This document shows, piece after piece, positions 5,092-34,401 of a stretch of DNA of 64,000 nt. A program made the position numbers and the translations under genes. Numbering within the stretch: position 1 is the stretch's first letter; each line of letters begins with the position of its first letter. Under the pieces are notes generated by a model. That model saw nothing but the letters and a program-made list of their open reading frames with translations, did no database searches and was not told where the DNA came from. Origin of the DNA: Watersipora subatra (lineage: Eukaryota > Bryozoa > Gymnolaemata > Cheilostomatida > Watersiporidae); assembly GCF_963576615.1 (NCBI RefSeq), contig NC_088717.1:54718526-54782525 (forward strand), written 5' to 3'.

Positions 5092-5240
5092 CGGATAACT
5101 TCACGGGACCAAGCGAAAGTGTTATCAGAGCATTCAAGTTATCAGAGCACTGTCACAAGTGCATGTATTTATCAGTAGATACATGTACATATACAAACTA
5201 TATATTAATCAAGAGCATAGATTTCTTGTTGCTATATAGG
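5092..5240 (+). mobile_element. Truncated end of a pogo-like TIR element (same family as 11579-15281)
   Basis: The sequence starts CAGTGAAACTCGGATAACT after a TA. It stays similar to the left end of the element at 11579 through the 'cagtagatacatgtacatat' stretch, to about 5240. The other end was not found, so it is a relic. The same family recurs at 59767-60452. Confidence 0.65.
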
Positions 5241-6226
5241 AATTATGAGCTAAAACTCATAATTTCTATACAGCAAATATGTAAATGCTGTTTGCTTTTA
5301 TTTTCACGAGTCGTCAAATAGTGAGCTCGCTTGTTTTTCATTAACCAAAAGAGAGGTGCATTCCTGTCTTTTTGATAGGTTATAGGTTTGATAGGTTATA
5401 TGTTCCTGTCTTTGCTGATAGGTCTTTTTGATAGGATCGCTAGCTGTTTTCGCTGGCACGTTTTTGCTGGATGGGCTCCCATTTATTATCTGAAAGGGTT
5501 GCAAACAATCTGTATTCTGACAAAGTAATGGCACATCATCGAATAGAAACATCAATGAACTGGTGACTACAAGATTTGTGATATGAGAATTTTTTTGACA
5601 AACTCGAAACATATTTAGCAACACTCTGTTCAAGCATATCCCATCTTGTCATCTATCTAATATCACATGCCATCACACCTGAATTTCTTTCCAGTCTACT
5701 CATCAGCTCAGCCCTCTGTACATCCTATACAGACATTTTGAGGACTCGGTTACCATCAGCCAAGACTTTTACTATCACTAAACCACCTTCATTGTGTTTT
5801 AGCTGTGAGCCAAGAAACATATGAGAAGCAAAGCCCTATCAACACAAAATGGTTAGCTTTTTTTCTACCATATTTTCTCTTCGTTTATTTAGTATATTGA
5901 CTCTCTTTTTTGGAAGTTTTTTAGAATCTCACCATTCATTGCCTTTGGTTTCTTTTCTAATTAGCTTGGCAAAACGTATCTATGACCCATTTTATTAGGT
6001 TTTTAATTGTTGTGTATTTGCATGAAAAATAAAAATCCATACTACTGATGAGGAAATTCATCAAACTCTAGTCTCAAAGCAACTCGTGTTCAATACGAAC
6101 ATTGATGCTAATACTATCATTTTAGGTTCTATTAATCAGTATCGCATATGTTCACCAGACTATATTGTTCAGCGTTCTTTGATGGAGGGCCAGACTCACT
6201 CAACACTCTTGTTTTGTCACTTTTAG

Positions 6227-15200: not shown

Positions 15201-18200
15201 GCGTGGGAACGGACCAAGCAAATCCATTCAAGTTAACCATGTGTTCGATATATCCGAGGGCGATTTATCCGAGTTTCACTGTATTTGCTTCTCGCACATA
15301 CTGTAGTTTGTCTCCCGCACATACTGTAGTTTACTTGTCTCCCGCACATACTGTAGTTTACTTGTCTCTCGCATAAACTGTAGTTTATTTGCCTCTTTCA
15401 CATACTGTAGTTTATTTGTCTCTTTCACATACTGTAGTTTATTTGTCTCTTTCACATACTGTAGTTTATTTGTCTCTTTCACATACTGTAGTTTATTTGT
15501 CTCTTTCACATACTGTAGTTTATTTGTCTCTTTCACATACTGTAGTTTATTTGTCTCTTTCACATACTGTAGTTTATTTGTCCCTTTCACATACTGTAGT
15601 TTATTTGTCTCTTTCACATACTGTAGTTTATTTGTCTCTTTCACATACTGTAGTTTATTTGTCTCTTTCACATACTGTAGTTTATTTGTCTCTTTCACAT
15701 ACTGTAGTTTATTTGTCTCTTTCACATACTTTAGTTTATTTGTCTCTTGCACATACTGTAGTTTATTTGCCTCTTTCACATACTGTAGTTTATTTGTCTC
15801 TTTCACATACTGTAGTTTATTTGTCTCTTTCACATACTGTAGTTTATTTGTCTCTTTCACATACTGTAGTTTATTTGTCTCTTGCACATACTGTAGTTTA
15901 TTTGCCTCTTTCACATACTGTAGTTTATTTGTCTCTTTCACATACTGTAGTTTATTTGTCTCTTTCACATACTGTAGTTTATTTGTCTCTTTCACATACT
16001 GTAGTTTATTTGTCTCTTTCACATACTGTAGTTTATTTGTCTCTTTCACATACTGTAGTTTATTTGTCTTTTTCACATACTGTAGTTTATTTGTCTCTTT
16101 CACATACTGTAGTTTATTTGTCTTTTTCACATACTGTAGTTTATTTTTCTCTTTCACATACTGTAGTTTATTTGTCTCTTTCACATACTGTAGTTTATTT
16201 GTCTTTTTCACATACTGTAGTTTATTTGTCTCTTTCACATACTGTAGTTTATTTGTCTCGCATAAACTGTAGTTTATTTGTCTCGCATAAACTGTAGTTT
16301 ATTTGCCTCTTTCACATACTGTAGTTTATTTGTCTCTTTCACATACTGTAGTTTATTTGCCTCTTTCACATACTGTAGTTTATTTGTCTCTTTCACATAC
16401 TGTAGTTTATTTGTCTCTTTCACATACTGTAGTTTATTTGTCTCTCGCACATACTGTAGTTTATTTGTCTCTTTCACATACTGTAGTTTATTTGTCTCGC
16501 ATAAACTGTAGTTTATTTGTCTCGCATAAACTGTAGTTTATTTGCCTCTTTCACATACTGTAGTTTATTTGTCTCTTTCACATACTGTAGTTTATTTGTC
16601 TCTTTCACATACTGTAGTTTATTTGTCTTTTTCACATACTGTAGTTTATTTGTCTCTTTCACATACTGTAGTTTATTTGTCTCTTTCACATACTGTAGTT
16701 TATTTGTATTTTTCACATACTGTAGTTTATTTGCCTCTTTCACATACTGTAGTTTATTTGTCTCTTTCACATACTGTAGTTTATTTGTCTCTCGCACATA
16801 CTGTAGTTTATTTGTCTCTCGCACATACTGTAGTTTATTTGTCTCTTTCACATACTGTAGTTTATTTGTTTTTTTCACATACTGTAGTTTATTTGTCTCT
16901 TTCACATACTGTAGTTTAATTGTCTTTTTCACATACTGTAGTTTATTTGTCTCTTTCACATACTGTAGTTTATTTGTCTCTTTCACATACTGTAGTTTAT
17001 TTGTCTCTTTCACATACTGTAGTTTATTTGTCTCTTTCACATACTGTAGTTTATTTGTCTCTTTCACATACTGTAGTTTACTTGTCTCTTTCACATACTG
17101 TAGTTTATTTGTCCCTTTCACATATTTATACTGTAGTTGTCATTAAAGGAGCTGTAAGACAAGAGCTTTACAAACTTTATGTCGTAGTCAGTTTTGCATA
17201 TTTTGTTTTATAAAAAACAAAATCTAAATATATCTTCCTCAGGCTCCCTTTTTGAAGTCGCATTCAAACGCTGCCAGCTACATATTGTTTTGAAAGATTA
17301 TAGTTCCTATTGGGAAAAGTTCGTTTCCCGTTACAACGGTTCCTTAGTTTACTCGCTGCATCTTCCAGTTGTTGTAGATAACTATAAAGGTTATCACCGC
17401 GAAAAGCGAGCTGAATTAAAATTCACTGTTATTACTAATTTTTTCTTATGGTGTCAACTGATTGTTTTTTGTATAGCGGACACTTCTTTTTACAACAGCT
17501 TTTAATTTGAGAAAAATGTGTGCCTGGCTCCATGTACTGGGCTAAACGATAAGTTTAACAGGATTCTGAAAGTAAAGGAGCTCCCTTTGTTTTGCAACAC
17601 AAAACTACTATGTATGTGGTACTTATTGCAGTAGTTGGTAACTTAGTACTAAACAGTGGTAGGTGTAAAGCAATACAAAGTATGTGATAGCTATTCACAA
17701 TTTTGTTTCAACAAAATAATGGAACATTTTATAACAATTTTCCTAACCCTACCATTTTGTAATCCTACCATTTTTCTTTCCCACAAAAAGTCTATGCGAT
17801 ACTCATTAATAACAGTGTAAGTACAACAAAACACCGTACGTGATATATGTTCACTGTATGTGTACAACGCAAAGTAGGTGATACTTGTAACAGTTGGCAG
17901 TAGATCTAAAACACAGAGTATGTGATAACCATTTACAGTAGACATAGAACACAAAGAATCTTTATTTTCAGTTGGTATATAAGACATATTCTTGTAATCA
18001 TTTTCAACAAGAAGACCAGCATCAGAGTACAGATTAGAGATAACGACGAGAAATCTGTCCAATGAAATGAACACATCTCCTTCAAGCACCTGTCCTTGTC
18101 AACATGAGTTTTACAGAAATAATCATCAGTTAATTTGTTAGTAAAAATGTGATGATATGTTTTGTGTCAAGAGTTATACATCTCCGGTGGTACCATTTCT

Positions 18201-21200
18201 CGCCAGTACTGTACTGAACCATAGATATACTGTTCTACGATATTAATTCTCAAGCTGATGCTTGTTGTATGGTCAGTGATACACAGTAAACCTACAAACA
18301 AACCAAGCATAAAATCTGTGAACCACACCAAATAATCTCTCCATCCAGGTGTTTCCAAATTGATGTCATTGTGAGGCATACAACATGCACAAAATAAAAA
18401 AAAATGAGCAAAGGCAAACTTGTTAACAGAAATCTAGCCTCTCACATTAAAGAGGTAGTAAGGAAAAGTGACTGACTACGCTTTGGTCAGTGTGAGAAGT
18501 TGAGGCGTTACACTATCAAACTCGCAATGTAAGACTACAACATCCTTACCAAAATTAGACCAGTTTAGTAAACATAATGTAAGAAATTGTATTATCTTGA
18601 TACACGCAATCTACAATGGTATCACAGAACAAGATTAATAATACATTACTGGACATACTCTGAGCAGATGATGGCACATACGCATTAGTCGACATACAAT
18701 ATACATGTAGATATTCACGGCATTACACAAGTTTCTTACCGCTCTTTCAGTCTGGTATTTCATTTTCAGTTTTACATTCATATCTCTTCCATGCTTGCAT
18801 GTGGTATGTATTGGTGCCTATCACAGTTGTTGCCATTCGTTCCACAATTATTTTTCCCGTTCTTTTTATTCAAAGTAAGTCATGTTATTTAAGTCTTGAT
18901 GTGAGTAAGCAGATAATAGTACAACTCTGAGTAAGTGTAACAAGTTCCAGTACGTAAAAACAAAACCCATGCATATATTATTCAAGAACTTTAGTCATAA
19001 TTGTTTGCTCTGGCGATTACTCTCTTGCTCTGGAAGAAGCAAAACTGTACTGACTAATATAACACAATTTCTTCACTCACTCACCAAAATCCAGAGGTGT
19101 TGTAAATGATTTTTTTTACTAACGAGCACAAACTTCGCCGTGTGTTCATTCTCATTTGGAATTTGGAGTTCAACCAAGAGCTAAACAAGTTTGTTTACCC
19201 GGTTTGTGTATGCGCAGATTTTTAGACTTTTCTGGGTTTATAAACAATACTGTTCAGAAATTAAATGCCACCCCTTTTGACTTTCAAAAACGCTTCCTCT
19301 CTAGCTAAGAGAACCAACCGCTTATTTGGTATTCACTTGCCTATTATAGTGGAGCACGTGTCAAAGTTATGGAACTTTGATCTTAAATACTTGGTTAAAG
19401 TCCTAGAGAAAATTAATCACAAGGACTTTAGGTGAACATATATGGCTTTAGTAGTCTTAATAATATTTGCTTTAAAATAATAAAAAGTAGCAACTGGCAA
19501 TCCTTTGAACACAGATGAGGGCTGAAAGACTTGCGCTCCTACAGTAAAATCCAATGTCAAGATGTTGAAGTTAATATTCATCGGTTTACACAAACCAACT
19601 CTCAATATTTTACTAGATGCAACAACATATTGCATACTATAAATACTAACGCAATGAAAAATTAATTTTGAATCGAAGTATTAAAGTTTTACAATTTAAT
19701 TAACTTTTTTCCTTTATTTTCCTCGAATTGAACCATTTTATCTGCAAAAGATACCCTACAGAGATAGACAAATTTCTAGTATCTACAACACCATTTACTC
19801 ACCATCCCTTCTTATTGCTTTCTCCTTTGCCTACCAGACTTTCTCCATCATCACTTATTCTGGTTATGTTGAGAGATTATACCAGGTTTCTATTGCATAG
19901 TTTCCAGATACTTGAAAACGGTGACTTCGGTTCACTACGTAGACGAATGTCTTATACTTATACTGAAACAGCGAGTCAACTAAGGAACCATTGTTACGGG
20001 AAACAAACTTTTTTCAATAGGAACTTTTCCTATTGTTCCCTATGCCTTGCTATACTAGTTTATATAAGCATCCATAAAGAGAAATCTGCCTTTTTGCATA
20101 TTTATGGTGTAGTTAGACTCATGAGTTAGACTTTGAGAGACTTATTCGTATGCTTGTGTTCATATTGTAGACACACTATTTGGAGGTGCAGGCATTTCGG
20201 ATAATTCAGTGGAATGCATGATGAGCATGTTCACTTCTTCCTCTTCTCAGCCAGCCCCTGCTCCCCCACCCGCTCTTCACAGCATGTCCAATCCATCTTC
20301 TCATCGCTTCCCTAGCAATCCTCCATCTCTTCACGCTCCCCACACTCCTCCCCTTCTCCGTACACCTAATCAGCGACACGTCCTTTCGGCACCTACCCAC
20401 AAACCCCATCCTCACAGCTCTACCAGCCTACCTGTCTTCCATCCGCACAGTAACCCTTCACCACAGTTCTCTAGTCTGCATGGATCAGCAACCAAAGCGT
20501 ATCGTAAAGCCCATCCGTTACCGCAGCTGTCTATGGGACATCTCTCGCATATAAAAACCCCGGTCAGACCTCATCACACTACTTCAGCAACACCCGGTTC
20601 CTCACAACCTTCTGGCATCAAGGTTAGTTAGTCTATCAGAAGTATGTTTGTAAAGGGAAACCACCTTCACCAATCTTGTTGGTCAAGCTAGTTGAACAAA
20701 ACACTCATGTTCAAAACAGAACTGTGCTTTGAACATGGTTCTTAGTTTAAATAATTAGACTAGACATAATACAGTACAATGCAATATAATAAATTATAAC
20801 AAGATTCGATTATGAAAATTCTATTTAAAACTGGGATTCATTTTATGTCATCCAGAATCGTCGTATTCAAATCATTAAATATGTTCATGTCTGCTAGTAT
20901 TAAATTGTAAATAGTTCTTAATTATTTCTATATATATTATATATTCCTATTAATTATTCCTATACCGATAAAAAGCTTGACTATGTGTTAAAGTCTAAGT
21001 AAAACCCTGTTATAGTTTTGGAGTCAATTCTTGAAAAGCTTTCTGTCACCTGAGCATCATTTTATAAGTACTTGATTATCGGAAGAAGATGAGGCCATGA
21101 TACGACGCATTTTGCTGCCTGCTCAAATTTTGCGGTGGCTCGTCATAACTAGCTTCATGTAGTTTTAACAGCAATGCATATATTAATATTATATACATGT

Positions 21201-21965
21201 ATTAAATTTTGGCATCTTAACATAAGTTTGTCTTTTGATTAAAGAAATTATAGAAAGAAAAATAATCACGGAGTTGCCTGCTCGCTTTTTTTAAACTTCA
21301 TTTTTAGCACGTTTTTGTTCACATCTATATGTTAGTCGTGATAGCAAAACAGTCTGGTAACTAAGCTACTCAAAAGAGATTTAAAATGGATTTTAGAAAT
21401 AACTATTGTAAGATTTTTTATCACGTTCAGGCAGGTAGATAAATGATGTAGACAGTTGCTATTTATATGTTCATTCAAAATAATTCCAATTATTGAAACT
21501 ATAATTTTGTTGTTGAATAAGCTCTTGGCAGATTTTTCCTAGTGGCCGGATTTTTTAGTCGGTAACATCAGTGTAGATGGCATTTGTCAATTTTTGCTAA
21601 GAACATAATTTGTGTGTACGATACGTGCCACACAATACATATCGACAGTATTACGTCGTCAAAGCTAAGCTTATGGTGTTGGGATAGTTTCCTGACTCAT
21701 ATCACTCTAAGTTTTCGGTATCAATCGCCTGCGGGTATGACGCTCGAAATGAATGGTAAACGATAGACGTGAGAGGATAAAAATTAAAGGAAACATCAAG
21801 TAAGTCCTTATCCTTGTTATCTTTTGCAATGGTCTATTAAGCTATCATTTTCTACACTCCTATGATTGGTTTTAGTTGTACCAGCAGTAACTTGTATTCT
21901 GTGTCTCGTTGTAGGTTTCTGAGGCTATAGGTGGTAGAGGTATTCAAGACAACGGTCTAGCTTAA
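6227..21965 (+). CDS. Multi-exon zinc-finger, Pro/Ser-rich regulator-like protein (5' end not found)
   Basis: Exons are 6227-6527, 7752-7894, 9363-9515, 11316-11490, 20192-20622 and 21915-21965. All join in frame (1254 bases, 418 codons with stop) through ordinary acceptors and donors (GTATGC, GTGAGC, GTCAGT, GTAGGT, GTTAGT). Exon 1 holds a C-x2-C-x12-H-x3-C finger (FECDRC...MESHKNTC) followed by a basic KRRKMGVPRR stretch that could be a nuclear signal. The following exons are low-complexity, rich in Ser, Pro, Ala and Asp. The exon at 11316 carries ILEIKVEVEP, where IKVE fits the sumoylation consensus. The exon at 20192 is Pro/His/Ser rich. The last exon adds 16 residues (VSEAIGGRGIQDNGLA). 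Exon 6227 begins in phase 0 right after an in-frame TAG, so earlier exons, or a start at the internal ATG 6284, must be assumed. The exon ending at 20622 stops in phase 0, like the incoming phase of all terminal exons downstream. Exon 6227 could also be read through its donor to a TAA at 6578-6580. Gene structure is likely; function (transcriptional regulator) is inferred. Confidence 0.7.
9575..9743. repeat. 15-bp minisatellite in an intron
   Basis: About 11 units of the form gattgctctagctag with single-base variants, starting 60 bases after the donor of exon 9363-9515. Confidence 0.85.
9932..10799. mobile_element. 868-bp MITE with long terminal inverted repeats
   Basis: The ends are inverted copies starting GTTGACTTGCAACAAAATTC, similar over about 160 bases (9932-10090 against 10641-10799). 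No transposase is visible inside. A second copy begins at 63359 and runs off the window. TTAA or TTAA-like sequence abuts the ends (TTAA at 9926-9929; TTAAAG before the second copy), so a TTAA-target family such as Kolobok is possible, but no clean target duplication can be shown. Confidence 0.8.
12514..14048. mobile_element. TA-target TIR element, third level of the nest
   Basis: The termini read CCCTAGGACACTTA inwards on both sides (14 bases identical, similar beyond) and are flanked by TA (12512-12513 and 14049-14050), as for Tc1/mariner-type elements. It contains a fragment (about 13385-13775) of the same family as the outermost element, and a small minus-strand ORF. Confidence 0.75.
12969..13193 (-). 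pseudogene. Small acidic ORF with PIP-box-like N-terminus inside the nested element
   Basis: From the ATG at 13193 the product starts MAKQIKITSFFGK. QIKITSFF fits the PCNA-binding consensus Q-x2-[ILM]-x2-[FY]-[FY]. An acidic stretch (NEEDDD) follows. N-termini of this kind occur in hAT-type and related transposon proteins. No further domain follows, so I read it as a relic or first exon of a lost transposon protein. Confidence 0.3.
15290..17130. repeat. 27-bp tandem array, about 67 copies
   Basis: The unit is tgtagtttatttgtctcttt plus cacatac. Because 27 is a multiple of three and the unit lacks stops, both strands show long ORFs (KETNKLQYV repeated on the minus strand). Those are by-products. 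Shortened 24-bp units carrying 'cgcataaactgtag' occur singly at about 15370 and in pairs at about 16257 and 16495, and suggest block duplication. The array starts 8 bases after the right end of the pogo-like element. Confidence 0.95.
17131..20191. other. Intron sequence without a supported gene
   Basis: This is the rest of the intron before exon 20192. About 17590-17960 holds a very degenerate repeat around 'aaagtatgtgata'. ORFs at 17194-17505, 17691-18089 and 19728-20129 have no recognisable domain, and I do not support them. Confidence 0.5.
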
Positions 21966-22058
21966 ATATTTAATGCTTAGCTAAATTTGAATCCTGTCTA
22001 TTGCTTACTAGTGTCATAGTTTGTGTTGTTAGCTATAGTGTTTCTACTCGATTCACAG

Positions 22059-22064
22059 AATAAA
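22059..22064 (+). terminator. Poly(A) signal AATAAA
   Basis: AATAAA lies about 95 bases after the TAA of the short last exon at 21915-21965. Confidence 0.65.
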
Positions 22065-23394
22065 TAAACGCATTCTCATAAAAACATTTTGCCAAATTTT
22101 ACCTTTCATGTTGTAAGTATATAATCATAGGTATACACTTATGATAGCAATGTTGTTAGTATAGTTTTTATTTGTTGCCGAAATGTGTCTATAAATTTAT
22201 ACTCTTTGAAAATACTTTTCCGTCGGTGATGCCGTAATTGGTACAATTTAACAAATGTGTGGTTCCTATTATCTTGCGAGTGTTGGGTAGAAACCCAATT
22301 TGGGTTAGCTTCGAAATCTTCCTCATGATTTTTTTAAGCCATACCCTAATTTGCACGTCCCGAACATCGTTCGTAAGCTGTAGTAACAGTCACTTTCTAA
22401 TGACACCATTGAAAGATAACAGCTTCAAAATTTACCTTTTCCTTACACTCATTGAAATCACCTCGTAGATCTTGAAACCTCATGTTTTCATGTGTCTTCC
22501 TTTTAATTGCAACAATGCTCTTTTTTAATTGTTTTAGTCAACTATTAAATATTATTTATCATCTGTTTTGTTGTAATAGCATTGTTTTACAAAAATATGT
22601 TTTTTTCAATATTTGACTGTCCAATAAATTTAGACATTTATTCTGGCCTTGATTCTTGCATACATGGAAGATGCTAAGTCATGACAGTTTACAAACATGG
22701 CTAGACCTGCACCATTTAGTAAAAGGCTTCAAATGTGTTGTATATTCACCTCTGAGGCTGAACATGGCTCGCGTTCAAGATATTGTCCAGTACTGGTTTG
22801 AGTGTTGCTGCCACATACAGGTATATAGCATTCTATGAAAAAATGACAATTCTTTGAAATGGCAAAGACACAAAAGCAAAAATCATTCTAAAAAGGTGCT
22901 GTTGATCATTTGCAAGGTTTCTATTCGCTACAATAAACAATCAATAATTTTATCGGGAAATTCACATTAAAAAAAAAGTTTTACCAAAAAAATGTCAGTT
23001 TTACAAATTTATGGAGCATTTTTATATTTTTTGCGTGGTCAATTATGAGAGCCTTTAACTTTTGCGGTTTGGCTCACCTTTTTTTCTGTTTATATGATAC
23101 ACAGCGCTGTTAACAAAGAATCGATGTACAAGAAACTTAGCAAGTTCCAACTGCATTCATAATATTTTTGGAGATAGTGAAAGAGTTTAAAAGACAACGA
23201 ATGTGTAATAGTGTTAATGAGGAATGGAAACGAGCAAAAGTTTGCTTTCATAAAGTTAATTAATTGCAGTTATTGTTGCGATACACTCATCTCAATATAA
23301 TTCGTAAACCTAACTACTGGGCCAACCCATGATCATTCCAAGTTTTTCAAGTTTGCATTTATGACCTGTTTTTCGTGCCAGGTAGCTTTTAGAA
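22065..23394. other. Non-coding stretch
   Basis: AT-rich; no supported gene. A possible donor (CATACAG|GTATAT at about 22820) follows a short ORF, but no acceptor gives an open exon. Confidence 0.4.
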
Positions 23395-24075
23395 TAAATC
23401 AATTTAGCAACTATGGTCTCCTATAGCAGCTGGTAGGTCTCCTATAGCAACTATGGTCTCCTATGGTAACTGTAGGTCTCCTATAGCAACTGTGGTCTCC
23501 TATAGTAATTGTAGGTTCCCTTTAGCATTTGTAGGTCTCCTATAGCAACTATGGTCTATGGCGACTGTAGGTTTCCTATAGCAACTTAGATCTCCTATAG
23601 CAACTATGGTCTCCTATAGCAACTATGGTCTCCTATAGCAGCTGGTAGGTCACCTATAGCAACTATGGTCTTTTATGGCAATTGTAGGTCGCTGCTAGCA
23701 ACTGTAGGTTTCCGATAGCAACTGTAGGTCTCCTGTAGTAACTGTAGGTCTCCTTTAGCATTTGTAGGTTTCCTATAGCAATTTTGGTCTCCTATAGCAA
23801 TTTTGGTCTCCTATGGTAACTGGAGGTATCCCATGGTAACTGGAGGTCTCCTATATCAACTGTAGGTTTCCTATAGCAACTGTAGGTCTCTTATAGCAAC
23901 TGTAGGTCTCCTTTAGCATTTGTAGGTTTCCTATAGCAATTTTGGTCTCCTATGGTAACTGGAGGTATCCCATGGTAACTGGAGGTCTCCTATATCAACT
24001 GTAGGTTTCCTATAGCAACTGTAGGTCTCTTATAGCAACTGTAGGTCTTCTTTAGCATTTGTAGGTCTTCTATTC
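23395..24075. repeat. Degenerate 20-22-bp minisatellite
   Basis: About 30 units of the form ctcctatagcaactgtaggt with frequent changes (ttagcatttg, atggtaactg). Part of it is duplicated as a block: 23756-23920 resembles 23908-24050. Confidence 0.85.
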
Positions 24076-24141
24076 ATAAGACTCCTAGTCAATTTTGGCT
24101 AAGTGTCGGATGACTGGGCTGAATATAAATACTCCCAACTT

Positions 24142-24858
24142 GTTTTAGCACTACCGCTGTTACGTAGGCTGATAGGTTTTAGCACTACCGCTGTAGTAGG
24201 CTGATAGGTTTTAGCACTACCGCTGTTACGTAGGCTGATAGGTTTTAGCACTACCGCTGTTACGTAGGCTGATAGGTTTTAGCACTACCGCTGTTACGTA
24301 GGCTGATAGGTTTTAGCACTACCGCTGTTACGTAGGCTGATAGGTTTTAGCACTACCGCTGTTACGTAGGCTGATAGGTTTTAGCACTACCGCTGTTACG
24401 TAGGCTGATAGGTTTTAGCACTACCGCTGTTACGTAGGCTGATAGGTTTTAGCACTACCGCTGTTACGTAGGCTGATAGGTTTTAGCACTACCGCTGTTA
24501 CGTAGGCTGATAGGTTTTAGCACTACCGCTGTTACGTAGGCTGATAGGTTTTAGCACTACCGCTGTTACGTAGGCTGATAGGTTTTAGCACTACCGCTGT
24601 TACGTAGGCTGATAGGTTTTAGCACTACCGCTGTTACGTAGGCTGATAGGTTTTAGCACTACCGCTGTTACGTAGGCTGATAGGTTTTAGCACTACCGCT
24701 GTTACGTAGGCTGATAGGTTTTAGCACTACCGCTGTTACGTAGGCTGATAGGTTTTAGCACTACCGCTGTTACGTAGGCTGATAGGTTTTAGCACTACCG
24801 CTGTTACGTAGGCTGATAGGTTTTAGCACTACCGCTGTTACGTAGGCTGATAGGTTTT
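24142..24858. repeat. 34-bp tandem array, 21 near-identical copies
   Basis: The unit is gttttagcactaccgctgtt plus acgtaggctgatag. Copies are identical apart from a short deletion in the second (gctgtagtaggct), which indicates recent expansion or homogenisation. There are no spacers between units, so it is not a CRISPR array. Confidence 0.95.
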
Positions 24859-25006
24859 AAAAAAGGTGCTCAGCATTATCGTTATGAATTGAGTGTTTCG
24901 AATATGTGTCATTAAGTGCTTATCATTTCATTTGAGTTTTTTTAAATTTTCAACCATGAGCAATGATATCGACTTCGTACACCTTACTTATCTGCAATGT
25001 TTGTAG

Positions 25007-25168
25007 GGTGCTACTGTCAATTTTCATTTATTTTCTATTCGCGCGCGGTTTAAAAACTCGTCTTCCACTGCTACCGCGATCGATAAGCCTTTCACCTCTA
25101 AGTTCCTGGATGTCACTTATAATCATGTACCTAAGGATCCTGCAAGGATGATCCTGTTGTTTCGGTAA
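25007..25168 (+). CDS. Candidate short terminal exon of the array
   Basis: The acceptor TTTGTAG ends at 25006. Only one frame stays open: phase 0, 53 codons (GATVNFHLFSIRARF...), then TAA at 25166-25168. The end, KDPARMILLF, resembles the start of the domain in the exon at 29322 (TDARIARKIL). A good donor (CG|GTAAGT) at 25165 overlaps the stop, so it could instead be an internal exon ending in phase 2. Truncated copy or internal exon: not resolved. Confidence 0.4.
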   Translation, partial: GATVNFHLFSIRARFKNSSSTATAIDKPFTSKFLDVTYNHVPKDPARMILLFR

Positions 25169-26119
25169 GTAAGCATTGATAATTTTATTGCAATGGTGGT
25201 GTTGTCATATCCTAAAAAATTTATCAAGACTTGCATTAAAAGTTCTTGTTTTCTATATTAAAAAGTCTGATTGATAAACTGTTTTAACTGAGTTCTGAAA
25301 TTTATCACTCTTATTAGATTTGCTTAAACAGTAATCTATGTGATTTGGCGCTGCATAGATCTTCAAGCAGAAAACTTTTTGTCTTTGCACATTGCGCGTA
25401 TAGTTAGTTTTAATCACTTGTCACAAAGACTTGTTTCTGTTTTCATCTTACATACGCATTCAAAAATCTATTAAAATTCAGCGTTTCAAAAAACGATGTA
25501 TAAGCGAGCAGACAACTCCTATATTACACTCGGTAATTCAAGATTATTTTTACACAACATGTCCATGACCTTCAGTGTTTAGATTTTTGCCATGCAAACC
25601 TTGTTAAGCAATGACTCCTTTTACCAAATTAGATAGCATGCTGTTATTGTGACAAGCTTTGCAAACCATTATATAGCGTGCTATTATTTATAAATTTATT
25701 TGCGCGCTGTGCTTGGAAAATGTGAAATTATGCAATGTATGCTATACAGGCTCCATTTGAGAGCAAATTCATCTAATTAAATGAAGATGCTGCACCGCTA
25801 CCAATGACGGTAAAAATATTTCATTTCACAAACGGGCTGTTTGTTGTTTATCTGTAGATATAAAATTAAAGTGGTATTATTATTCATATCACCGTAGCAA
25901 CGCTGTTTAGAATTTTTAATTAATTCTTTCACAATATAAGTTGACAAAATCGTGTGCATTTCTTGAGTTGTCCTGTGCTCTGGTGTGATTATTGTCTATG
26001 TTGCTTGTACTTTTCTTTAGAAGAGTTGACAGTGTCACTCTAAAATGACTTTGTACAATTGCTCCATATCAGGTTGAGTCAAATTTAGTTCCTAGTGAAG
26101 GAAGTAAATTAGTCACTTG
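25169..26119. other. Non-coding stretch
   Basis: AT-rich sequence with no supported exon or repeat, between the candidate exon and the MITE. Confidence 0.4.
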
Positions 26120-26123
26120 TTAA

Positions 26124-26763
26124 CCCTTTGAACCCTAACTATCTTAGTCAATGCGTGTCAGTATCCCTGGGAAATTTGTCAAACGATAGGCGTTTTGAAA
26201 CTTATTAAATATATCTAAATATGCTCATAATCAAATGATATACAGTATGGTAAAACACTGGAAAACAAGTCTAACAATGCACAACAAATGACACTAAATA
26301 TGAAAAATCATTTCACAGTTCTTCGGGCTAAAATCGTATAAATTAGTACGATTTCAACAAATTCTAAAAATGCTTGCAGTATCAGCTTATTCATCTAGCA
26401 CACGTTTATCATTGTTTTATGATTTGAAATAATCAGCAAAATTCTAGTTAGTATCACATGATTCTTTGTCTGCATCACTTTCATGCATCACATACCAACA
26501 AATAAATGGTAGAAAATTTTTTCTCAATGTCATCTCCGTAAATTTTTTATAGCAATGAAGGAAGTTGATAAAGATATTTAAAAGCGGTGAAAAATGAACT
26601 AAAATTTCTAATCTAATGCGCTATGCAAGAATTAATTTAATTTTCGCTGTTTCTTAAAAACATTATTAGTAAACAGAACCAAATGGATACCACTATACTG
26701 GCTGTCAGGGTTTCTGACACGTGCTACACAATGCTGGAATACCGACTGTCAGGGTTCAAAGAG
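26124..26763. mobile_element. piggyBac-like MITE (TTAA target)
   Basis: The left end is CCCTTTGAACCCTAAC and the right end, inverted, is CTCTTTGAACCCTGAC. TTAA lies outside on both sides (26120-26123 and 26764-26767). This is the hallmark of piggyBac termini and target. There is no coding capacity. An inverted fragment of the same family lies at about 45660-45822. Confidence 0.8.
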
Positions 26764-26908
26764 TTAAAACTCAGCATTATTGCACAGAGAAAATGCTGCT
26801 AGAGTGGGTATAAGGGCGGTTGTGAAAACATCAATTTATCAAGATCTATGATTGCAATTTTAAACAACACTTTTGGCATCTATAAGTTTTAATGTATCTT
26901 GATTTTAG

Positions 26909-27205
26909 GGTCAGGATTTTATTGGTAAAACAGATGAAGAGTTGTTTCAATCATCTTATGTGAAAAGACTATTCAGGTGTGAAGAAGAATTAGTGACCAT
27001 GAGAAATCTGCAATGCAAGAAACTTTTTCCACCGCAAGTTGTGGGAGATTCGAAGAGTTACAATTCTGAGCAAGGAACATCGTATCTACAAAGACTCGCT
27101 GAAGCAGGATTAGGGTTTATAGAGTATCACGGTAGAGCAGTATCTTTTCGAAAAAGACAGTTATCAGAGCTTCCACATGCTTTTGTTGAAATTATCAAAC
27201 AGTAA
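26909..27205 (+). CDS. Alternative terminal exon 1 (array domain)
   Basis: The acceptor GATTTTAG ends at 26908. It is phase 0, 98 codons, with TAA at 27203-27205; AATAAA follows at 27254. The product starts GQDFIGKTDEEL. After a variable first half comes the signature shared with the other exons: YLQRLAEAGLGF...AVSFRKRQLSEL, that is an R/K-x2-A-x2-G-[LFY]-G helix-turn, a short strand, then S-F-R-K and a last helix. The fold may be winged-helix-like, judged by pattern only. No first exon or start codon belongs to it, which fits use as a 3' exon joined to an upstream exon ending in phase 0, such as 20192-20622. I do not recognise the family. Confidence 0.65.
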   Translation, partial: GQDFIGKTDEELFQSSYVKRLFRCEEELVTMRNLQCKKLFPPQVVGDSKSYNSEQGTSYLQRLAEAGLGFIEYHGRAVSFRKRQLSELPHAFVEIIKQ

Positions 27206-27253
27206 TGTGATCAAATCCTGTTTTTTTATTATTGCTTATTTGATATCTTACAC

Positions 27254-27259
27254 AATAAA
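27254..27259 (+). terminator. Poly(A) signal AATAAA
   Basis: It lies 49 bases after the stop of terminal exon 26909-27205. Confidence 0.65.
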
Positions 27260-27745
27260 TGAGCACAAGTCAATCTTCACTATTTCTTCAGTCATGATTG
27301 GTAGGCTGCTTTGGCAGTTTTCACTTTATTTACTTCTGTTTGTTTAGTGCTAAAAATTGTCCTATTGAAATGTTTCATACAATCAAATGCTTGCATGATA
27401 GGGGCTCAAGCCCCTATACTCGTTAATGCAGTCATATCTATGCCAAAATTCTATTTGTCAATATCATTTCTCACATTGTTTTACTGTATTTGCGTATTTT
27501 CATTCAGTTTGGATGAATTGACTTTACCTCGTAAGATCAGCTTTGGTCTTTCTAGACAGGTGATTCGGTTACATGACAGTTTTGCAATCAGTGTTTTTCG
27601 GATCACATGTATCACTTATTTGCGCATTGTAACAGCATAGTGGATATCATCCTCTAGATAGCAGAATATTGATCATTCTGCAAAACCATGATGAAGTAAA
27701 ATAATTTAGTAAGGAGTGTTGTTAACTCCAACACATTGGCTGTAG

Positions 27746-28542
27746 ACAAGGTTTGCAAGTGACGCAGGACAGGAAGGAATCCTGGCAGGCTATGGCTCCG
27801 ATACGCGAGATGATCAACCGCCATATCTTCACTATGATGCTGTGGCAAGCACTCCTGTAGAAACTAACGAAGAGTTTGTGAATTCTTCAGCTGCCGGGCC
27901 ATCTCATTGGTCTCCACACACTGCTAAATGGAAAAATATTCATACTAAGCCTGCTTCTAGTGCACTTACTCTGGAACACAAGTTTCAGTGTTGCCAACTG
28001 CATGATAGTGGTGTAGCCATCAGAAGTCTTTGTATGAAGTTCAATCAGAGTAAAGCTTCTATACAAAATGTTATACATAACAAGCAGAAGATAATGTCTG
28101 AATGGTTTCGATTCTCCAATCCATACCTTCAGAAGAAACATCGAGCGCTTAAATCTCCTGCTTACGCTGAAATAAACTCTGCTATTCTTGAGTGGTATTG
28201 GGCTTCTAAGGCAGCAGGCAAGTCTCTGACTGGAGTTGGAATTCAGTCAAAGGCCAAAGCTGTGGCGGAAGAGCTGGGGTATCACAGCTTCAAGGCTTCC
28301 AATGGTATGTTTTGATTGGCTTGTGTTTCTCATTTTATTACAATTGAAAAACACTTGTTTAATTCTTAAGCACTGGCTTATTTTCCACCTCTTTGATCTT
28401 TTTATGCTTTTTAATAATGATGAAATAGTTTTTAACATTGAAACTCAACAATAAAATTCATCGTATTATAGGGTGGTTAGAGTACTTTTGGAAAAGGGTA
28501 AGGCGACAAGAACAGTCGACAGCTGATGTGAATCCCCAGTAA
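27746..28542 (+). CDS. CENP-B/Tigger-type HTH encoded by a terminal exon pair
   Basis: Exon 27746-28304 follows the acceptor GGCTGTAG in phase 0. It ends at AATG|GTATGT and joins 28472-28542 (acceptor ATTATAG), ending in TAA; the total is 630 bases, 209 residues. After a free N-terminal segment the protein has the two-part CENP-B layout: a first HTH (SSALTLEHKFQCCQLHDSG ... FNQSKASIQNVI), then a CENPB-type HTH with a central W, G-K-S-L-T-G and the hallmark GYHSFKASN|GWLEYFW, where the G is made across the splice junction. That join confirms the intron. In CENP-B, jerky and Tigger proteins a DDE domain follows. Here the protein stops after 20 more residues, so only the DNA-binding part is kept. 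It sits inside the array of phase-0 terminal exons and probably is one of them. Confidence 0.75.
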
Positions 28543-28711
28543 TGGACCAGATAATCGGAATTATATCTTCATAAAAATAAGCAAGGTGATCCTACACTTT
28601 ATGCTACGTACGGAACCCAACTTGTGTATTTTTTACCTACTTGTGATACATGTGATCCGAACAACATTTTTTATATGATCTAGACAAATAATCTAGAATT
28701 TTTAATTTTAG

Positions 28712-29140
28712 TATCGGAAAACTGAAGCATTTACAAGCGTTGGTGGTTCATCTATGTCTCTCTCCGATTCGGAATTTGTCAAAGATCATGCTTATACAAT
28801 CAAAAGGCTACTGCTACTTGATGACAGATTATTAGACATAACTCATACGAGAGTTCAGCAGCTTCATCTCTGTCCATTTGATTTTAATGAAGAAAGAAAG
28901 AAAACGTACACTGCCAATACCGCTCGTCATTTTCTTTACCGAGTTGCTAGCATTGGTTTTGGCAACGTTCTTCAAGGTCGTACCAAGAAGATAACATTTA
29001 AGAGAAATATGTGGCAGGATTTAAATGCATTCTGTAGGCAAACCCTTGCGAAGCTTGGAATAACACAACAACTCTGGTCTAGACATGATCATCACGTAGT
29101 TGAAGAAATCGTGGACTCCCCAAAGCTTTTGTGCTTGTGA
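28712..29140 (+). CDS. Alternative terminal exon 2 (array domain)
   Basis: The acceptor TAATTTTAG ends at 28711. It is phase 0, 142 codons, with TGA at 29138-29140. The start is YRKTEAFTSVGGSSMSLSDS; the ATG inside could serve as a start if transcribed alone. The domain shows TRVQQ, then HFLYRVASIGFGNV...TKKITFKRNMWQDL, matching the shared signature (A-x2-G-F-G, K-K-I-T-F-K). The tail is longer than in the sister exons. A GATAAA variant lies about 15 bases after the stop; no AATAAA is close. Confidence 0.65.
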   Translation, partial: YRKTEAFTSVGGSSMSLSDSEFVKDHAYTIKRLLLLDDRLLDITHTRVQQLHLCPFDFNEERKKTYTANTARHFLYRVASIGFGNVLQGRTKKITFKRNMWQDLNAFCRQTLAKLGITQQLWSRHDHHVVEEIVDSPKLLCL

Positions 29141-29321
29141 TTGCCTATTACTTTTGATAAATGATTAATTTGTGATTCACAATAGTCATATTTTGGCTTC
29201 AGTTTCTTTTGTCATCATACTTAGATTTGTTTTTCAACACCTGTCTACAAAGACCAACTAAAAGCACCACTATCAATAATCATTAATTGAATTAATTAAT
29301 AAGTCCTTTATTGTCATTTAG

Positions 29322-29720
29322 AAATGGACTGATGCCCGGATTGCTCGTAAGATACTGATGAACCCTGGAATGTTTACCACACTCGTCCAGATAAAATATA
29401 GTATGCCTTGCACTTTGCGACCTTTGTTACATCACAAAATTCTTTCGATCATGACATCTCTGCAAGCAAAAGGGTATGGTGAAATGAGAAACACAGTATT
29501 TTATAAAAACCCAATATTATCTCAAACGATGCTTGAGGCATACATGATTGATCCCGCACTGTATCGATCTGTCCTTCAGTCTTCAGAACTGCGATATGGA
29601 ACTACACAGGCATCCAGTATGAGACACAATGCGGTTCACCGGTCTATATTCAATATTGAGCAAGACACTATTGGATTTATCTCTCCACATCCTATTAACA
29701 TCGATTATTCATTATCCTAA
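29322..29720 (+). CDS. Alternative terminal exon 3 (array domain)
   Basis: The acceptor TGTCATTTAG ends at 29321. It is phase 0, 132 codons, with TAA at 29718-29720; AATAAA is at 29873. The product starts KWTDARIARKILMNPGMFTT. The signature here is SIMTSLQAKGYGEM...FYKNPILS. It forms a subgroup with the exon at 30069, which shares GYG and [FY]-[FY/K]-K-N-P-x-L-S in place of S-F-R-K. A tail of about 60 residues follows. Confidence 0.65.
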   Translation, partial: KWTDARIARKILMNPGMFTTLVQIKYSMPCTLRPLLHHKILSIMTSLQAKGYGEMRNTVFYKNPILSQTMLEAYMIDPALYRSVLQSSELRYGTTQASSMRHNAVHRSIFNIEQDTIGFISPHPINIDYSLS

Positions 29721-29872
29721 CCTATGGTTGGAAGATGTATCTTTATTTATAGCCATGTTTGTAAACATGATGCTTCTTGCAAATTTGGTCTTTGATACTA
29801 GTTATCTTATTTTTGGCTGTTCATTTCGCATGTAATTTTGTATATACTAATGCTTTTACATATCTCTAGTTA

Positions 29873-29878
29873 AATAAA
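29873..29878 (+). terminator. Poly(A) signal AATAAA
   Basis: It lies about 150 bases after the stop of terminal exon 29322-29720. Confidence 0.55.
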
Positions 29879-30068
29879 TATGATTGTAATGATTTACAGC
29901 AAAACTGTCACGTGTTACCATTAACTGTTGAAATGTTTGCATTCAACCAATTTACAAGTAACAACTCCACTTAATGTCTACTACCATAAGCGCAACTTTA
30001 GACCATGCCCATCAAGGCTTATGCTATTATTAATTGTGGTACACTGGTATTCCTACATCTTGTTGTAG

Positions 30069-30407
30069 GAAAGCTTGAGCCAGCAAGCTCTAGTACAACG
30101 AATCCTATGTTCACACGGCAAAGTAGTGAATGTTAGTCAAGTTCGCTACTCTATCAATCGTAAGCATCATGAAAAAGATTTAGGTCTTCGTTTAGAGTCA
30201 GTCATGAAGACGCTCGCTCAAACTGGTTATGGTTACCTAATCAAAGGACGGTTCTTTAAGAATCCCAGGCTCAGTCATCTCCAGTTAGTCTTCTATGGAG
30301 TGTCTAGTGAAGAGTATTATCAAAAGCTTCTTTCTACCAAGGGAAACCACCAAGTTGCTCCAGATAAAATGAAAGAGCTTAACGACTTGCATCGTTCCCT
30401 CTTTTAA
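30069..30407 (+). CDS. Alternative terminal exon 4 (array domain)
   Basis: The acceptor TTGTTGTAG ends at 30068. It is phase 0, 112 codons, with TAA at 30405-30407; AATAAA is at 30795. It begins ESLSQQALVQRILCSHGKVV and has VMKTLAQTGYGYLIKG...FFKNPRLSHL, closest to the exon at 29322. The first helix, Q-R-I-L-x3-G-K, matches A-K-K-I-L-x3-G-K of the exon at 33111. Confidence 0.65.
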   Translation, partial: ESLSQQALVQRILCSHGKVVNVSQVRYSINRKHHEKDLGLRLESVMKTLAQTGYGYLIKGRFFKNPRLSHLQLVFYGVSSEEYYQKLLSTKGNHQVAPDKMKELNDLHRSLF

Positions 30408-30794
30408 ATGATCTTTGTGTTGTCCTTGCTTTGCGAAAGTCCTTAATCATCGTAAGGTCTCAATTAGCTAACTTGCTATGGACAACCAGTGTAAGAGAAT
30501 TTTATATCAGTCATACAATAACAGCTCGCAATTGTATGGCAAAGTTATCAGGTGTACAAATCTTTATATTATCAATCCATGCATAGGTCATAATTGACCA
30601 ATTAGTTGACAAAACAGTAAACCAAAATTCATCGCACTCGTATGGCTCATATTTGTAAAGGATCTATGCTAATTTTTATGGTAGCATAGCATTTACCATT
30701 TAGTTGCCTTATATTGCTGACTATAACTAAACTGTTAACTTTGCATTTACTCCAAAAATGCTGCATAGAATTCATATGCTTGTAATGATTTTAC

Positions 30795-30800
30795 AATAAA
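30795..30800 (+). terminator. Possible poly(A) signal AATAAA
   Basis: First AATAAA after the stop of exon 30069-30407, about 390 bases downstream. Confidence 0.4.
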
Positions 30801-33110
30801 CCAAGTTGTCTATCCATATTTCGTCAGTACTTGCTTAGGCAGTTTCTAAATATAGTAATTGATTTACAACCAACAATCATCATTTGTTCCATGTTGACAA
30901 AATGATGGTTTTTTGTTGTCGTTACTCTGTGTCAGATATCTTGTTATGAGATTATTACCAATTTGGCGTAATTGGCCCACATTTTATTATTTGTCATTTT
31001 TGTTGTATAAATTTGTGATTGCATAGTTTTTTTTTAAATATTTATATCATATTTTTAGAAGCTTCATTATTGTTGTTGCATCTAAATATGATTAGCAGTA
31101 CACATTTTATTTAGAGTGTTATATTTCATGAAATCAGTTGAAACCTTGAAAATATAGCCACATACTGGTATACCCTTTCAAATTACCGGTTTCCACCTCA
31201 ATTGTCAACAGCTACAAGTGCATTGCTTTATTCTCTTATTTACTTGAAAAAAAGTATGTCAGTTCTATAATTTATTTAGCCTTATTCAATTTATACTAAT
31301 TGTAATTACAAGAGCCTTAAAATAAAATTGATAGCATTGCTTCATTAGGGTTACTAATATTAGTTTGGCCTGCTCATCTGCTTTTCATTACTAGCATTTG
31401 TAATGTACTTCAGTTATTTCTCTGACAAGATTTTCCCCTATCAACAGCAAGTAATCAACAATGCAGTGTATATTTTATAGAGAATTAATATTAGTGAAAA
31501 AAGCCAACTGAATCTAGAGGAAGGAATACAAAATTATAAAAATCTACTTTAGTTTGCTTCTCTAATTTATTTTGGTATTAATTTTAAAGCAATTTCCTAT
31601 ATAGCAGGTGCAAACAAGACACCAATAAAAAGAACTTTGGAATTCAAAACTACTTATCGTTGAAAATCTTAGAATAACTTTTGATGATGTTGTAGCAGGT
31701 AGAGTGATAAAGATTCATGTCGCTCCATAAAATCTTGCCTAGATTGTCAATAGCCAAAGACCATTTGATCTTGATAAACTACGTTCTGCTAAAAAATTTA
31801 GTTATTGTTATGCAGTGACTTCTTATATTCCGCTAAAAACACTATTCTCAAGCCTGTATTGTAAAAAGTAGTGTCCTTGAAGCGAGCTATCTCGAAGGGT
31901 GAAAAATTATGCTTTCACAGAATGAAATCCTGTTTAAAGGGACTGTGGCTACATACAACATTGGAAAGAATTTTTATGTATTGGTTGACATATTCTTTTT
32001 GAACAAGTATGTCGGTCTACATTAGTAGCTATGACATATCTCTGATTAGTGTAAAGTTAAATCTTCTTAGAATCTAATGACAGCTGAAGTTTGCTTTCAA
32101 AAACAATGCCAGGTTTTCACCCAAAAACTGTTTCATGCATGGATGAAGATTTCTCACTGATAGCAGATTGTGGATGATCCAGGCGCAATTTAGAGAAGTT
32201 TCATAGCAACCAATCATTTTTAAAGAAGGCAAATAAAATGGTTGAAATCCAAGTCCTTCTCTAGTCTGATTCATGTCATTAATCCTAATTATTTTTGTAC
32301 TTGGCCGACTTCTATTGTCGTTGTAGAATGGGTTTTTTGAGGAAAAATAAATCAATGCAACAAGCTGCACAAGCCTTATTGTTATTGCATTCTTTGAGGG
32401 TTCATATTCGAGAATAAGTTGATGATACTTAATTATATGTATAAAAATCTAGCAAGGACATTTCAGCTGTAACACAGCGGAGGCCAATTTTTATTGGCCA
32501 ATCTATTTGTCGAAGCTTCGTTTTGTAGTGTCAGTTTGTGTGTGTAGCCACAACAGCTACCTATTCTGTACTTAAGCTATGTGCTTGATCAGTTTTTATA
32601 GCCAGGTCTCTAATTATTCACATGCGAAATGTCAGTTAATATTTTCTAGCTTGCTCTCTGCAATCCACTAACATTTTAGTAAACTCCAGCACACAAGCCT
32701 ATCATTTTAATTTCAACTGTATATAAATTTTTTAACGTCTTCGAGCGAGTCAATACCACCAATACTCATCTCATCCAATAAAACTGCCTTCAGCATCCGT
32801 TATTAAAGTTCCACATTTCCATATATAATGGAAAATCTTATGCTGTTCGGGTACTATATTTTCCATGGAATTGAGAAACGTTATATGTACTACTTTTGAG
32901 AAAGAGTTTAACGAGATGAAATTACAAGCAGAAATAGCTTTTGGTTTTTTATTGGGAGGTTTGCTTAGGAACAAGTGGTTTGTTTTTGATAATCTTTATC
33001 CCCGGTGATTGAACTAAGTGCCACCAATCTTAGTTGTTTCAAATAAGTTTCAAAAAACATCGACTGAAAAAGAACTGATTGTAACATCAGCATTTGGATG
33101 TTAATTTTAG
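30801..33110. other. Stretch without a supported gene
   Basis: AT-rich. A minus-strand ORF at 32074-32370 shows no known domain. No further phase-0 domain exon was found here. The acceptor at its right end (GTTAATTTTAG) opens exon 33111. Confidence 0.45.
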
Positions 33111-33494
33111 GCTGAGGGTTGCAAAGTTTCAAATGAAGAATTTCCAAAAACAATTCAGATTGCTAAGAAAATCCTCACATCCTCAGGAAAGTACACATCG
33201 TCTAGACAAGTTCGGATGTCATACTCTTACAGGCGACGACCTGACGCTCACTCCGTAGAAGAAGCATTTCTTGATTTAGAAAAGAATAGGTTGGGCAAAC
33301 TCTATGCAAATTTAGGCTTTGTGAAGAATGCCAATGCAAATGCTGAAAGCTTAGCAAAGTATGGCGTCCACTTGAACGTTTACTTGGAAAAGTACCACAC
33401 GCACTTTGACGCGAACAACAAAGTACCGTATGGTCTTACGGTTCGGGTTATAGAACAGCTAGATGCTTTAGCCAGTTCACGGCCAACCTGTTGA
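33111..33494 (+). CDS. Alternative terminal exon 5 (array domain, divergent)
   Basis: The acceptor GTTAATTTTAG ends at 33110. It is phase 0, 127 codons, with TGA at 33492-33494. The start is AEGCKVSNEEFPKTIQIAKK followed by ILTSSGKYTSSRQVR, aligned with the first half of the sister exons (I-L-x3-G-K-x-T/V-x3-Q-V-R). The second half has LEKNRLGKLYANLGFVKN, where the conserved glycines are shifted. It then has a tail of about 50 residues. This is the most divergent member. No AATAAA is close after the stop. Confidence 0.6.
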   Translation, partial: AEGCKVSNEEFPKTIQIAKKILTSSGKYTSSRQVRMSYSYRRRPDAHSVEEAFLDLEKNRLGKLYANLGFVKNANANAESLAKYGVHLNVYLEKYHTHFDANNKVPYGLTVRVIEQLDALASSRPTC

Positions 33495-34075
33495 AGCTAG
33501 TTTTCATTGGCAAATCCTCGAATTGTCGGGTTAGTAATTCCTGAATTTTTGAGTGATTCGATTTCTTACATTGCTTGCAAGATGCTCATTCAACTTCTTG
33601 ACAGTCTATAAAATATTTTTCTACTTATCTTGAGAATCGAACTGCTCAAACTTTGAGTTTAAGTAATTAGGTTTCTTTTACAAATTGTTAAAATAGGCAT
33701 TACTGTTTGCATGCATTTGAATGCAGGCGAACTGACAATACAGCTAAACTGGGTGAATTCTTCGGGTTCTCACAATGACTTATCCCTATTACCAATTTGT
33801 ATGCTAAATATAGTTTCTTGTCTACTTTCACTTCATGAGTCACACAAAAGTCATATGCAGCTTTCAGAGTGAAAGTCTTTCCCCTTTTTCCAGTGAATCA
33901 CCGCTCAGGGATATCTACAAGCATGCAAGCTTTGACTCTTAGCTGCTTGAAAATTAGCGAAACTTTACAGAAGTGGTCGAGGCTGGCAACTGAAGTTTTG
34001 CTGTAATTAAATAATAAATGTCCTACTTTCGTGCACCGATACAGTCATCTCACACCATCTCTGGTGTACTTGTAG

Positions 34076-34393
34076 AGCCAAATGGTCGTTTCTGCTTATG
34101 CGTTCACAGAGGGAAACAAGGAGTTCATCGAGAAATACAAAAGTGCAATCTGCAAGCTTTTGACTGTTGAAGGTGTACAAACTACAAGAGAAATGCTTCG
34201 TTATCGACGATATGATACATCTTACGGCGTTGGAGTAGAATATGTTAAACTTTTCATGATTCGAGTAGCCGAATGTGGTTTTGGAGTTTTGGAACCTGGT
34301 CATACAAAAAAAACTATTTCTTTTAGAAAGCGAGAATTGTCTCAGATGAATGAAATGTGTAAACAGTTTTGTATGGACAACTTGGTTGTCTGA
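34076..34393 (+). CDS. Alternative terminal exon 6 (array domain)
   Basis: The acceptor TACTTGTAG ends at 34075. It is phase 0, 105 codons, with TGA at 34391-34393, followed 2 bases later by AATAAA (34396-34401). The product has the full signature: ICKLLTVEGVQTTREMLRYR, then FMIRVAECGFGVLEPG and KKTISFRKRELSQM. It is closest to the exon at 26909 (S-F-R-K-R-x-L-S). An internal ATG at 34082 is the only start available if it is not spliced to an upstream exon. Confidence 0.65.
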   Translation, partial: SQMVVSAYAFTEGNKEFIEKYKSAICKLLTVEGVQTTREMLRYRRYDTSYGVGVEYVKLFMIRVAECGFGVLEPGHTKKTISFRKRELSQMNEMCKQFCMDNLVV

Positions 34394-34395
34394 GA

Positions 34396-34401
34396 AATAA
34401 A
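34396..34401 (+). terminator. Poly(A) signal AATAAA
   Basis: It follows the stop of exon 34076-34393 almost at once, giving a very short 3' UTR. Confidence 0.65.

Follow-up and report, generated by a model that had tools for sequence, protein, structure and literature searches.

Two fly genes are the best-known cases of exon banks through which a regulator exchanges its DNA-binding end. A stretch of 64,000 nucleotides from the bryozoan Watersipora subatra (contig NC_088717.1, positions 54,718,526 to 54,782,525 of the forward strand; hereafter the window, numbered from its first letter) raises the question of whether a gene of this plan exists in another phylum, as a sequence-only reading of positions 20192 to 34401 had proposed by analogy with lola and mod(mdg4). 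Our analysis makes this very probable: in one gene, the shared 5' exons between 6227 and 20622 would end at a phase-0 donor from which splicing leads to a single 3' terminal unit out of seven or more alternatives lying between 26.9 and 34.4 kb, giving a set of DNA-binding regulators. This reading stands on the exons, their phases, their homology, a predicted fold and two joins present in annotated proteins.

Shared exons and the bank of terminal exons

A chain of exons was picked by splice score and phase before the annotated proteins had been seen. The predicted spliced protein carrying exon 28712 (exons are named by their first position) was used as query in a protein search in which the 8,000 candidates with the most common words were scored, and isoforms having the shared part are expected among these candidates. 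Four proteins were matched: P0012 (isoform X7), P0013 (isoform X5), P0014 (isoform X2) and P0015. X7 is composed of Met, five shared exons and exon 26909, and X5 of Met, the same five exons and exon 30069, every letter being identical in both cases; their common N-terminus of 409 residues, Met included, is the same. The chain contained the same exons as X5 and X7 except for the start of the last shared exon, placed at 20192 as in the sequence-only reading; the annotated start is 20171, a position also found among the splice-score candidates. The phase-consistent chain, chosen beforehand and matching the annotation but for that start, supports the one-gene reading. The shared exons are as follows.

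6227 to 6527, plus strand: shared exon encoding the residues after the initial Met; found by splice scores, then exact in X5 and X7
7752 to 7894, plus strand: shared exon; splice-score candidate, exact in X5 and X7
9363 to 9515, plus strand: shared exon; splice-score candidate, exact in X5 and X7
11316 to 11490, plus strand: shared exon, acidic; splice-score candidate, exact in X5 and X7
20171 to 20622, plus strand: last shared exon, Pro/Ser/His-rich; exact in X5 and X7; phase-0 donor after 20622 (score 3.06)

The initial Met, ahead of exon 6227, has to be supplied by an upstream exon ending in ATG, which was not located. One finger-like CxxC...HxxxxC motif was recognized by eye in exon 6227-6527, where no Pfam finger match was obtained, and the ILEIKVEVEP motif of exon 11316-11490 resembles a SUMO site. 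No BTB domain was detected in the shared part, P0012 and P0013 giving no Pfam match at an expectation value (E) of up to 1.

The sequence-only reading had named joins of the donor at 20622, or of another shared phase-0 donor, to several of its acceptors as the support to look for. Phase 0 of the donor at 20622 was confirmed, and the joins to 26909 (X7) and 30069 (X5) are exact and in frame, as annotation rather than as reads. The bank itself was retained for seven units, listed below with their predicted domains; homology or a domain, together with the reading frame, argues for each of them.

26909 to 27205, plus strand: bank exon 1, winged-helix subfamily A, own stop; C-terminus of X7; E 1.9e-4 to 34076 and 0.013 to 28712
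27746 to 28304, plus strand: bank unit 2, first exon, CENP-B-type DNA-binding domain; Pfam and PDB matches of the spliced product
28472 to 28542, plus strand: bank unit 2, second exon, to the stop; the join lifts the PF03221 score
28712 to 29140, plus strand: bank exon 3, winged-helix subfamily A, own stop; four relatives, AlphaFold2 model
29322 to 29720, plus strand: bank exon 4, winged-helix subfamily B, own stop; three relatives, 65-69% identity
30069 to 30407, plus strand: bank exon 5, winged-helix subfamily B, own stop; C-terminus of X5, AlphaFold2 model, two relatives
33111 to 33494, plus strand: bank exon 6, winged-helix subfamily B, own stop; one relative, 53% over 102 residues
34076 to 34393, plus strand: bank exon 7, winged-helix subfamily A, own stop; matched by the 28712 profile at E 3.3e-6

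Each of the seven units, when spliced onto the shared exons, forms one open frame to its own stop, as does 21915. The nine starts of the sequence-only reading (21915, 25007, 26909, 27746, 28712, 29322, 30069, 33111 and 34076) do all follow TAG and stand in phase 0. An open reading frame (ORF) beginning behind a TAG stop will always resemble a phase-0 exon and, because of this possible bias, the exons for the phase test were chosen by homology instead. A family profile found six of the 1,035 window ORFs of at least 30 residues (26909, 28712, 29322, 30069, 33111 and 34076), the members reaching down to E 2.4e-22 and the next match having E 1. All six open at TAG; the same is true of 287 of the 1,033 ORFs in the background (chance about 5e-4) and of 22 of the 57 ORFs of at least 95 residues (chance about 3e-3), in agreement with the earlier statement that such a phase agreement is unlikely by chance. 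Since the six exons are inside the family profile, the searches with single-type profiles given below constitute the independent test. The closeness of AATAAA signals, also advanced as evidence, was abandoned, no clear excess over random places being apparent: such a signal lies within 200 nucleotides of three of the seven bank stops (22.5% of random places), within 400 nucleotides of four (42%) and within 600 nucleotides of five (56%).

TAG acceptors were counted in seven of seven bank units and in two of five shared exons (annotated start; Fisher 0.045), a difference on which we do not lean, the numbers being small. Weak acceptors could suit competing exons.

Domains carried by the bank

The six exons found by the family profile have no Pfam match at E up to 1. 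Single-type profiles cross-match within two subfamilies, A (26909, 28712 and 34076) and B (29322, 30069 and 33111), at E 5e-7 to 0.013. The 33111 profile finds 29322 (E 8e-5) and 30069 (E 3.5e-4); in the reverse direction, 33111 was obtained at E 3 with the 30069 profile and was unlisted with the 29322 profile. The two subfamilies align collinearly, none of 300 column shuffles being as good, and their profile-profile comparison is weak by HH-suite's own figures. A kinship between A and B is therefore suggested by the column shuffle, by a like predicted fold and by the shared position. AlphaFold2 models of exon 28712 (mean predicted local distance difference test score, pLDDT, 71) and of exon 30069 (mean pLDDT 89.6) both display a helix-strand-helix-helix-strand-strand order followed by further helices. 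This is the H1-S1-H2-H3-S2-S3 order with a wing, as modelled, and the six-exon family is predicted to fold as a winged helix. The structural matches of the models in the PDB are mostly winged-helix proteins. No named winged-helix family could be assigned to the six exons by Pfam (E up to 1) or by PDB sequence comparison (best E 0.63), and the fold rows were tied; the named families missing from the fold lists were not counted as evidence. A search of a viral fold library gave a best E of 0.035. As the four other winged-helix exons are homologous to 26909 and 30069 and have the same strand and phase, they support the interpretation of a single bank.

The types are also kept outside the window. 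Two profile searches yielded ten distinct proteins (P0001 to P0010) in other assemblies, all ten assignable to a bank type: P0001, P0002, P0004 and P0005 to the 28712 type (66-98% identity), P0003, P0008 and P0010 to the 29322 type, P0006 and P0007 to the 30069 type (79-88% over 67 residues) and P0009 to the 33111 type. Relatives of four of the six winged-helix types are thus present in other assemblies at 53-98% identity; none was found there for 26909 or 34076 in the profile searches, and 34076 was also in no isoform found. P0003, P0005 and P0009, which represent three types, each lie on a contig of 11,971 bases, and the three types are probably linked on one contig in a relative. Inside the window, the paralogous winged-helix exons share 19-29% identity in all 15 pairs. 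Exon types that are kept across assemblies yet differ strongly from each other make separate target sites a testable claim. Viral contigs queried with P0005 returned seven pattern matches and no relative, phage records queried with exon 28712 gave no match, and neither Rfam (gathering scores) nor ARAGORN produced a match.

The remaining unit carries a different domain. Splicing of 27746-28304 to 28472-28542 gives 209 residues in which PF03221 (HTH_Tnp_Tc5) is matched with E 3.1e-10 and 40.3 bits (cut-off 22.2), the splice lifting the score from 24.1 bits. These 40 bits after intron removal indicate that the unit looks intact and spliceable. CENP-B_N (PF04218) stays below its cut-off of 21.2 (E 0.15, 12.2 bits), and the alignment to PDB 1hlv, a solved CENP-B chain, covers residues 74-195 and both halves of the domain (E 1.1e-11). 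The frame stops right behind the helix-turn-helix (HTH), and no transposase catalytic part is present within the 209 residues. No isoform or relative of this unit was found; the unit itself was not used as a query of the protein collection.

The C-terminal ends, proposed to differ in their DNA-binding domains, look DNA-binding: they carry a predicted winged helix or a CENP-B-type HTH, and binding itself is a prediction. In the pre-mRNA, the phase-0 donor at 20622 would be joined to one of the seven phase-0 TAG acceptors and the 3' end of the mRNA would be formed behind the chosen terminal exon. Each mRNA would then encode the same N-terminus, largely of low complexity and with one finger-like motif, followed by one of seven C-terminal domains, namely one of six diverged winged helices or the CENP-B-type HTH. 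Most likely, the resulting proteins would be DNA-binding regulators with common cofactor contacts that differ in the choice of their targets. Tandem duplication of a single winged-helix exon, together with capture of a transposase-type CENP-B domain, is the probable origin of the bank.

Alternative explanations and surroundings of the bank

The joins to 28712, 29322, 33111, 34076 and 27746 (the CENP-B-type unit) occur in none of the four proteins found, two of the seven bank units being seen. This absence counts as moderate evidence at most and would fit an explanation in which 26909 and 30069 are the only real terminal exons of the gene, the five other units being decaying duplicates or parts of other genes. 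The same explanation would account for 34076 and the CENP-B-type unit (itself not queried) having no relative or isoform. We consider it quite unlikely, given that all five units are open over 105 to 209 codons, that 28712-, 29322- and 33111-type domains recur in other assemblies and that removal of its intron leaves the CENP-B-type domain at the score given above. According to the covered passages of the W. subatra genome note, which do not mention the gene, RNA sequencing was done on one adult specimen, an Ensembl annotation exists, and the public RNA sequences belong to BioProject PRJEB62167 (PMC12902671); rarer isoforms could thus have been missed.

Two further explanations concern the way in which the units are expressed. 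Each bank exon might have its own promoter and be joined to the shared part by trans-splicing, a mechanism by which all isoforms arise at mod(mdg4), whose layout is similar, in the part of the source covered (PMC12692577). The same source, as far as covered, places some mod(mdg4) exons on the other strand, whereas the seven units are all on the strand of the shared exons, for which splicing in cis suffices. In two places, 169 nucleotides (28542 to 28712) and 181 nucleotides (29140 to 29322) separate a stop from the following acceptor and leave little room for a promoter and a first exon, so independent promoters for every bank exon look unlikely, and trans-splicing of this kind is in our opinion unlikely as well. 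The sequence-only reading had denied the units a convincing first exon of their own. In four of the seven, no Met precedes the domain (first Met at residue 31 in 26909, 97 in 27746, 46 in 30069 and 36 in 33111); 28712, 29322 and 34076 have an early Met at residues 15, 13 and 3. These four units, the short spacing in places, the single strand and the uniform phase would also suit separate small genes of a polycistron, with a trans-spliced leader at each TAG acceptor, since a leader ending in ATG would likewise force phase 0. Here, the identical 409-residue N-terminus to which X5 and X7 join two of the units speaks against it (a spliced leader was not searched for), and we regard this possibility as very improbable. 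The preferred reading is one gene with a shared front and alternative ends, and in it the five other joins, DNA binding, distinct targets and a choice made by cis splicing are inferred.

The two remaining proteins point to a second, paralogous bank, located upstream.

1 to 414, plus strand: upstream bank, one alternative last exon, truncated by the window start; its product equals the C-terminal 137 residues of P0015
1307 to 1956, plus strand: upstream bank, another alternative last exon, resembling Myb/SANT by eye; its product equals the C-terminal 215 residues of X2 (P0014)

Exon 1307-1956 has no Pfam match reaching its cut-off, and the best PDB match of P0014 by sequence has E 0.8. P0014 and P0015 have their first 240 residues in common and then diverge; the junction appears to be in phase 1, residue 241 starting with one base from the shared side, and a CAG acceptor is present at 1307. 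Their front was not found in the window, where its one match is the 71% match to exon 6227, and it would lie upstream of the window if the order is collinear; P0014 has 51 of 71 residues in common with the X7 front. A shared front with alternative last exons thus seems to occur twice in tandem. The end of P0015 is also weakly similar (E 0.0021) to an ORF at 62572-62892.

We tentatively consider, at somewhat less than even chance, a single gene with two nested choices, in which one ATG exon would be joined to one of two front cassettes, A (MDTTGLHNL..., with the last exons 1-414 and 1307-1956) or B (MDTSGQHNL..., from exon 6227 onwards), each with its own bank. Both fronts begin with Met-Asp, in B exactly at the exon junction, and the source names the proteins isoforms X2, X5 and X7. 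The best ATG/GT site in 1-6226 scores 0.96, compared with 2.7-7.4 for the six inferred donors, five of which are annotated. On the other hand, the ATG/GT sites at 3743 (0.96) and 5849 (0.41) remain candidates, nine ATG/GC sites were listed unscored, and there may be two tandem genes, the names leaving the gene membership of X2 undecided. If the two-level organization is true, a whole unit of front and exon bank was duplicated inside one gene and the banks were filled with winged helices and transposase-type domains.

Two starts proposed earlier as bank members, 21915 and 25007, were not adopted, being without homology or isoform.

21915 to 21965, plus strand: possible short alternative end of 16 residues, unsupported; acceptor score 5.56, phase 0, AATAAA 94 nucleotides past the stop, no homology
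25007 to 25164, plus strand: possible internal exon or noise, unsupported; TAG acceptor, donor close to consensus at 25165 (score 5.0), not part of X5 or X7

Long arrays of tandem repeats are present in introns of the gene (15307-17124, 23405-24073 and 24142-24859) and further on in the window (39064-39822, 47038-47387, 48983-49457, 50665-50929 and 53112-53672). They include a 27-bp unit in about 68 copies and a 34-bp unit in 21 copies at 99% match, and several of them produce long spurious ORFs. Between 36 and 41 kb, ORFs of the minus strand resemble exons of another, oppositely directed gene; FPNLHLVGVRKCGTQDLTKWF from this region is presumably sulfotransferase-like, as judged by eye, with no Pfam match at E 0.1. 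The other features are the following.

46038 to 46337, minus strand: methyltransferase domain PF13847, E 7.6e-8
47980 to 48342, plus strand: C2H2 zinc fingers PF00096, E 5e-7
56502 to 57641, minus strand: ORF of 380 residues, weakly matching a Tesmin/TSO1-like CXC domain (E 0.0065, under the cut-off) and perhaps derived from a mobile element

Comparison with known systems

Among the matches listed in open-licence PMC text, neither the titles nor the opening words of the abstracts mention this gene or an exon bank of a bryozoan. In Drosophila lola, as described in the part of the source covered, shared N-terminal exons are combined, by cis and trans splicing, with one C-terminal set of exons chosen from at least 20 unique ones, most of which have zinc fingers (PMC1947980). 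The bryozoan locus resembles it by joining shared exons to one of probably seven ends; it differs in that lola has a BTB domain and mostly zinc-finger ends, whereas here no BTB was detected by Pfam and the ends are predicted winged helices with one CENP-B-type HTH. At mod(mdg4), four constitutive exons are followed by one of more than 30 alternative 3' ends, with trans-splicing only, according to the passages covered (PMC12692577). A constitutive front with alternative 3' ends is again common to both, but mod(mdg4) uses trans joins with some exons on the opposite strand, and the Watersipora bank is entirely on one strand. The layout of one shared 5' set with several 3' terminal exons is found here with exact joins for two of seven units, and with homology or a domain, phase and an open frame for the other five.

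A member of the lola/mod(mdg4) family by descent would be expected to have a BTB domain in its shared part and C2H2 or FLYWCH fingers in its ends. No Pfam finger match (C2H2 or FLYWCH) was obtained in the seven units at E up to 1, or in the spliced CENP-B-type unit at E up to 0.5. Since neither a BTB domain nor finger ends were found, the locus appears, on the features tested, to work like lola and mod(mdg4) without being a member of their gene family by descent. We regard it as a lola/mod(mdg4)-like plan in another phylum, Bryozoa, with another DNA-binding fold.

The pogo-Tigger transposases are linked to the CENP-B DNA-binding domain. The unit 27746+28472 shares this domain by its matches to PF03221 and PDB 1hlv, and differs by the lack of the transposase catalytic part and by its position among winged-helix exons. 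By analogy with the capture of transposases by host genes, the CENP-B-type end could be a captured transposase domain serving as an alternative terminal exon. The difference from the usual capture is that it would be one member of a bank whose six other ends are diverged copies of a domain with no Pfam name. The bank may record both routes of growth, tandem duplication and uptake of a transposase-type domain. A bryozoan gene of this plan, with no BTB domain found and a different fold, would show that the plan known from flies can arise independently, and that its variable part may be something other than a zinc finger.

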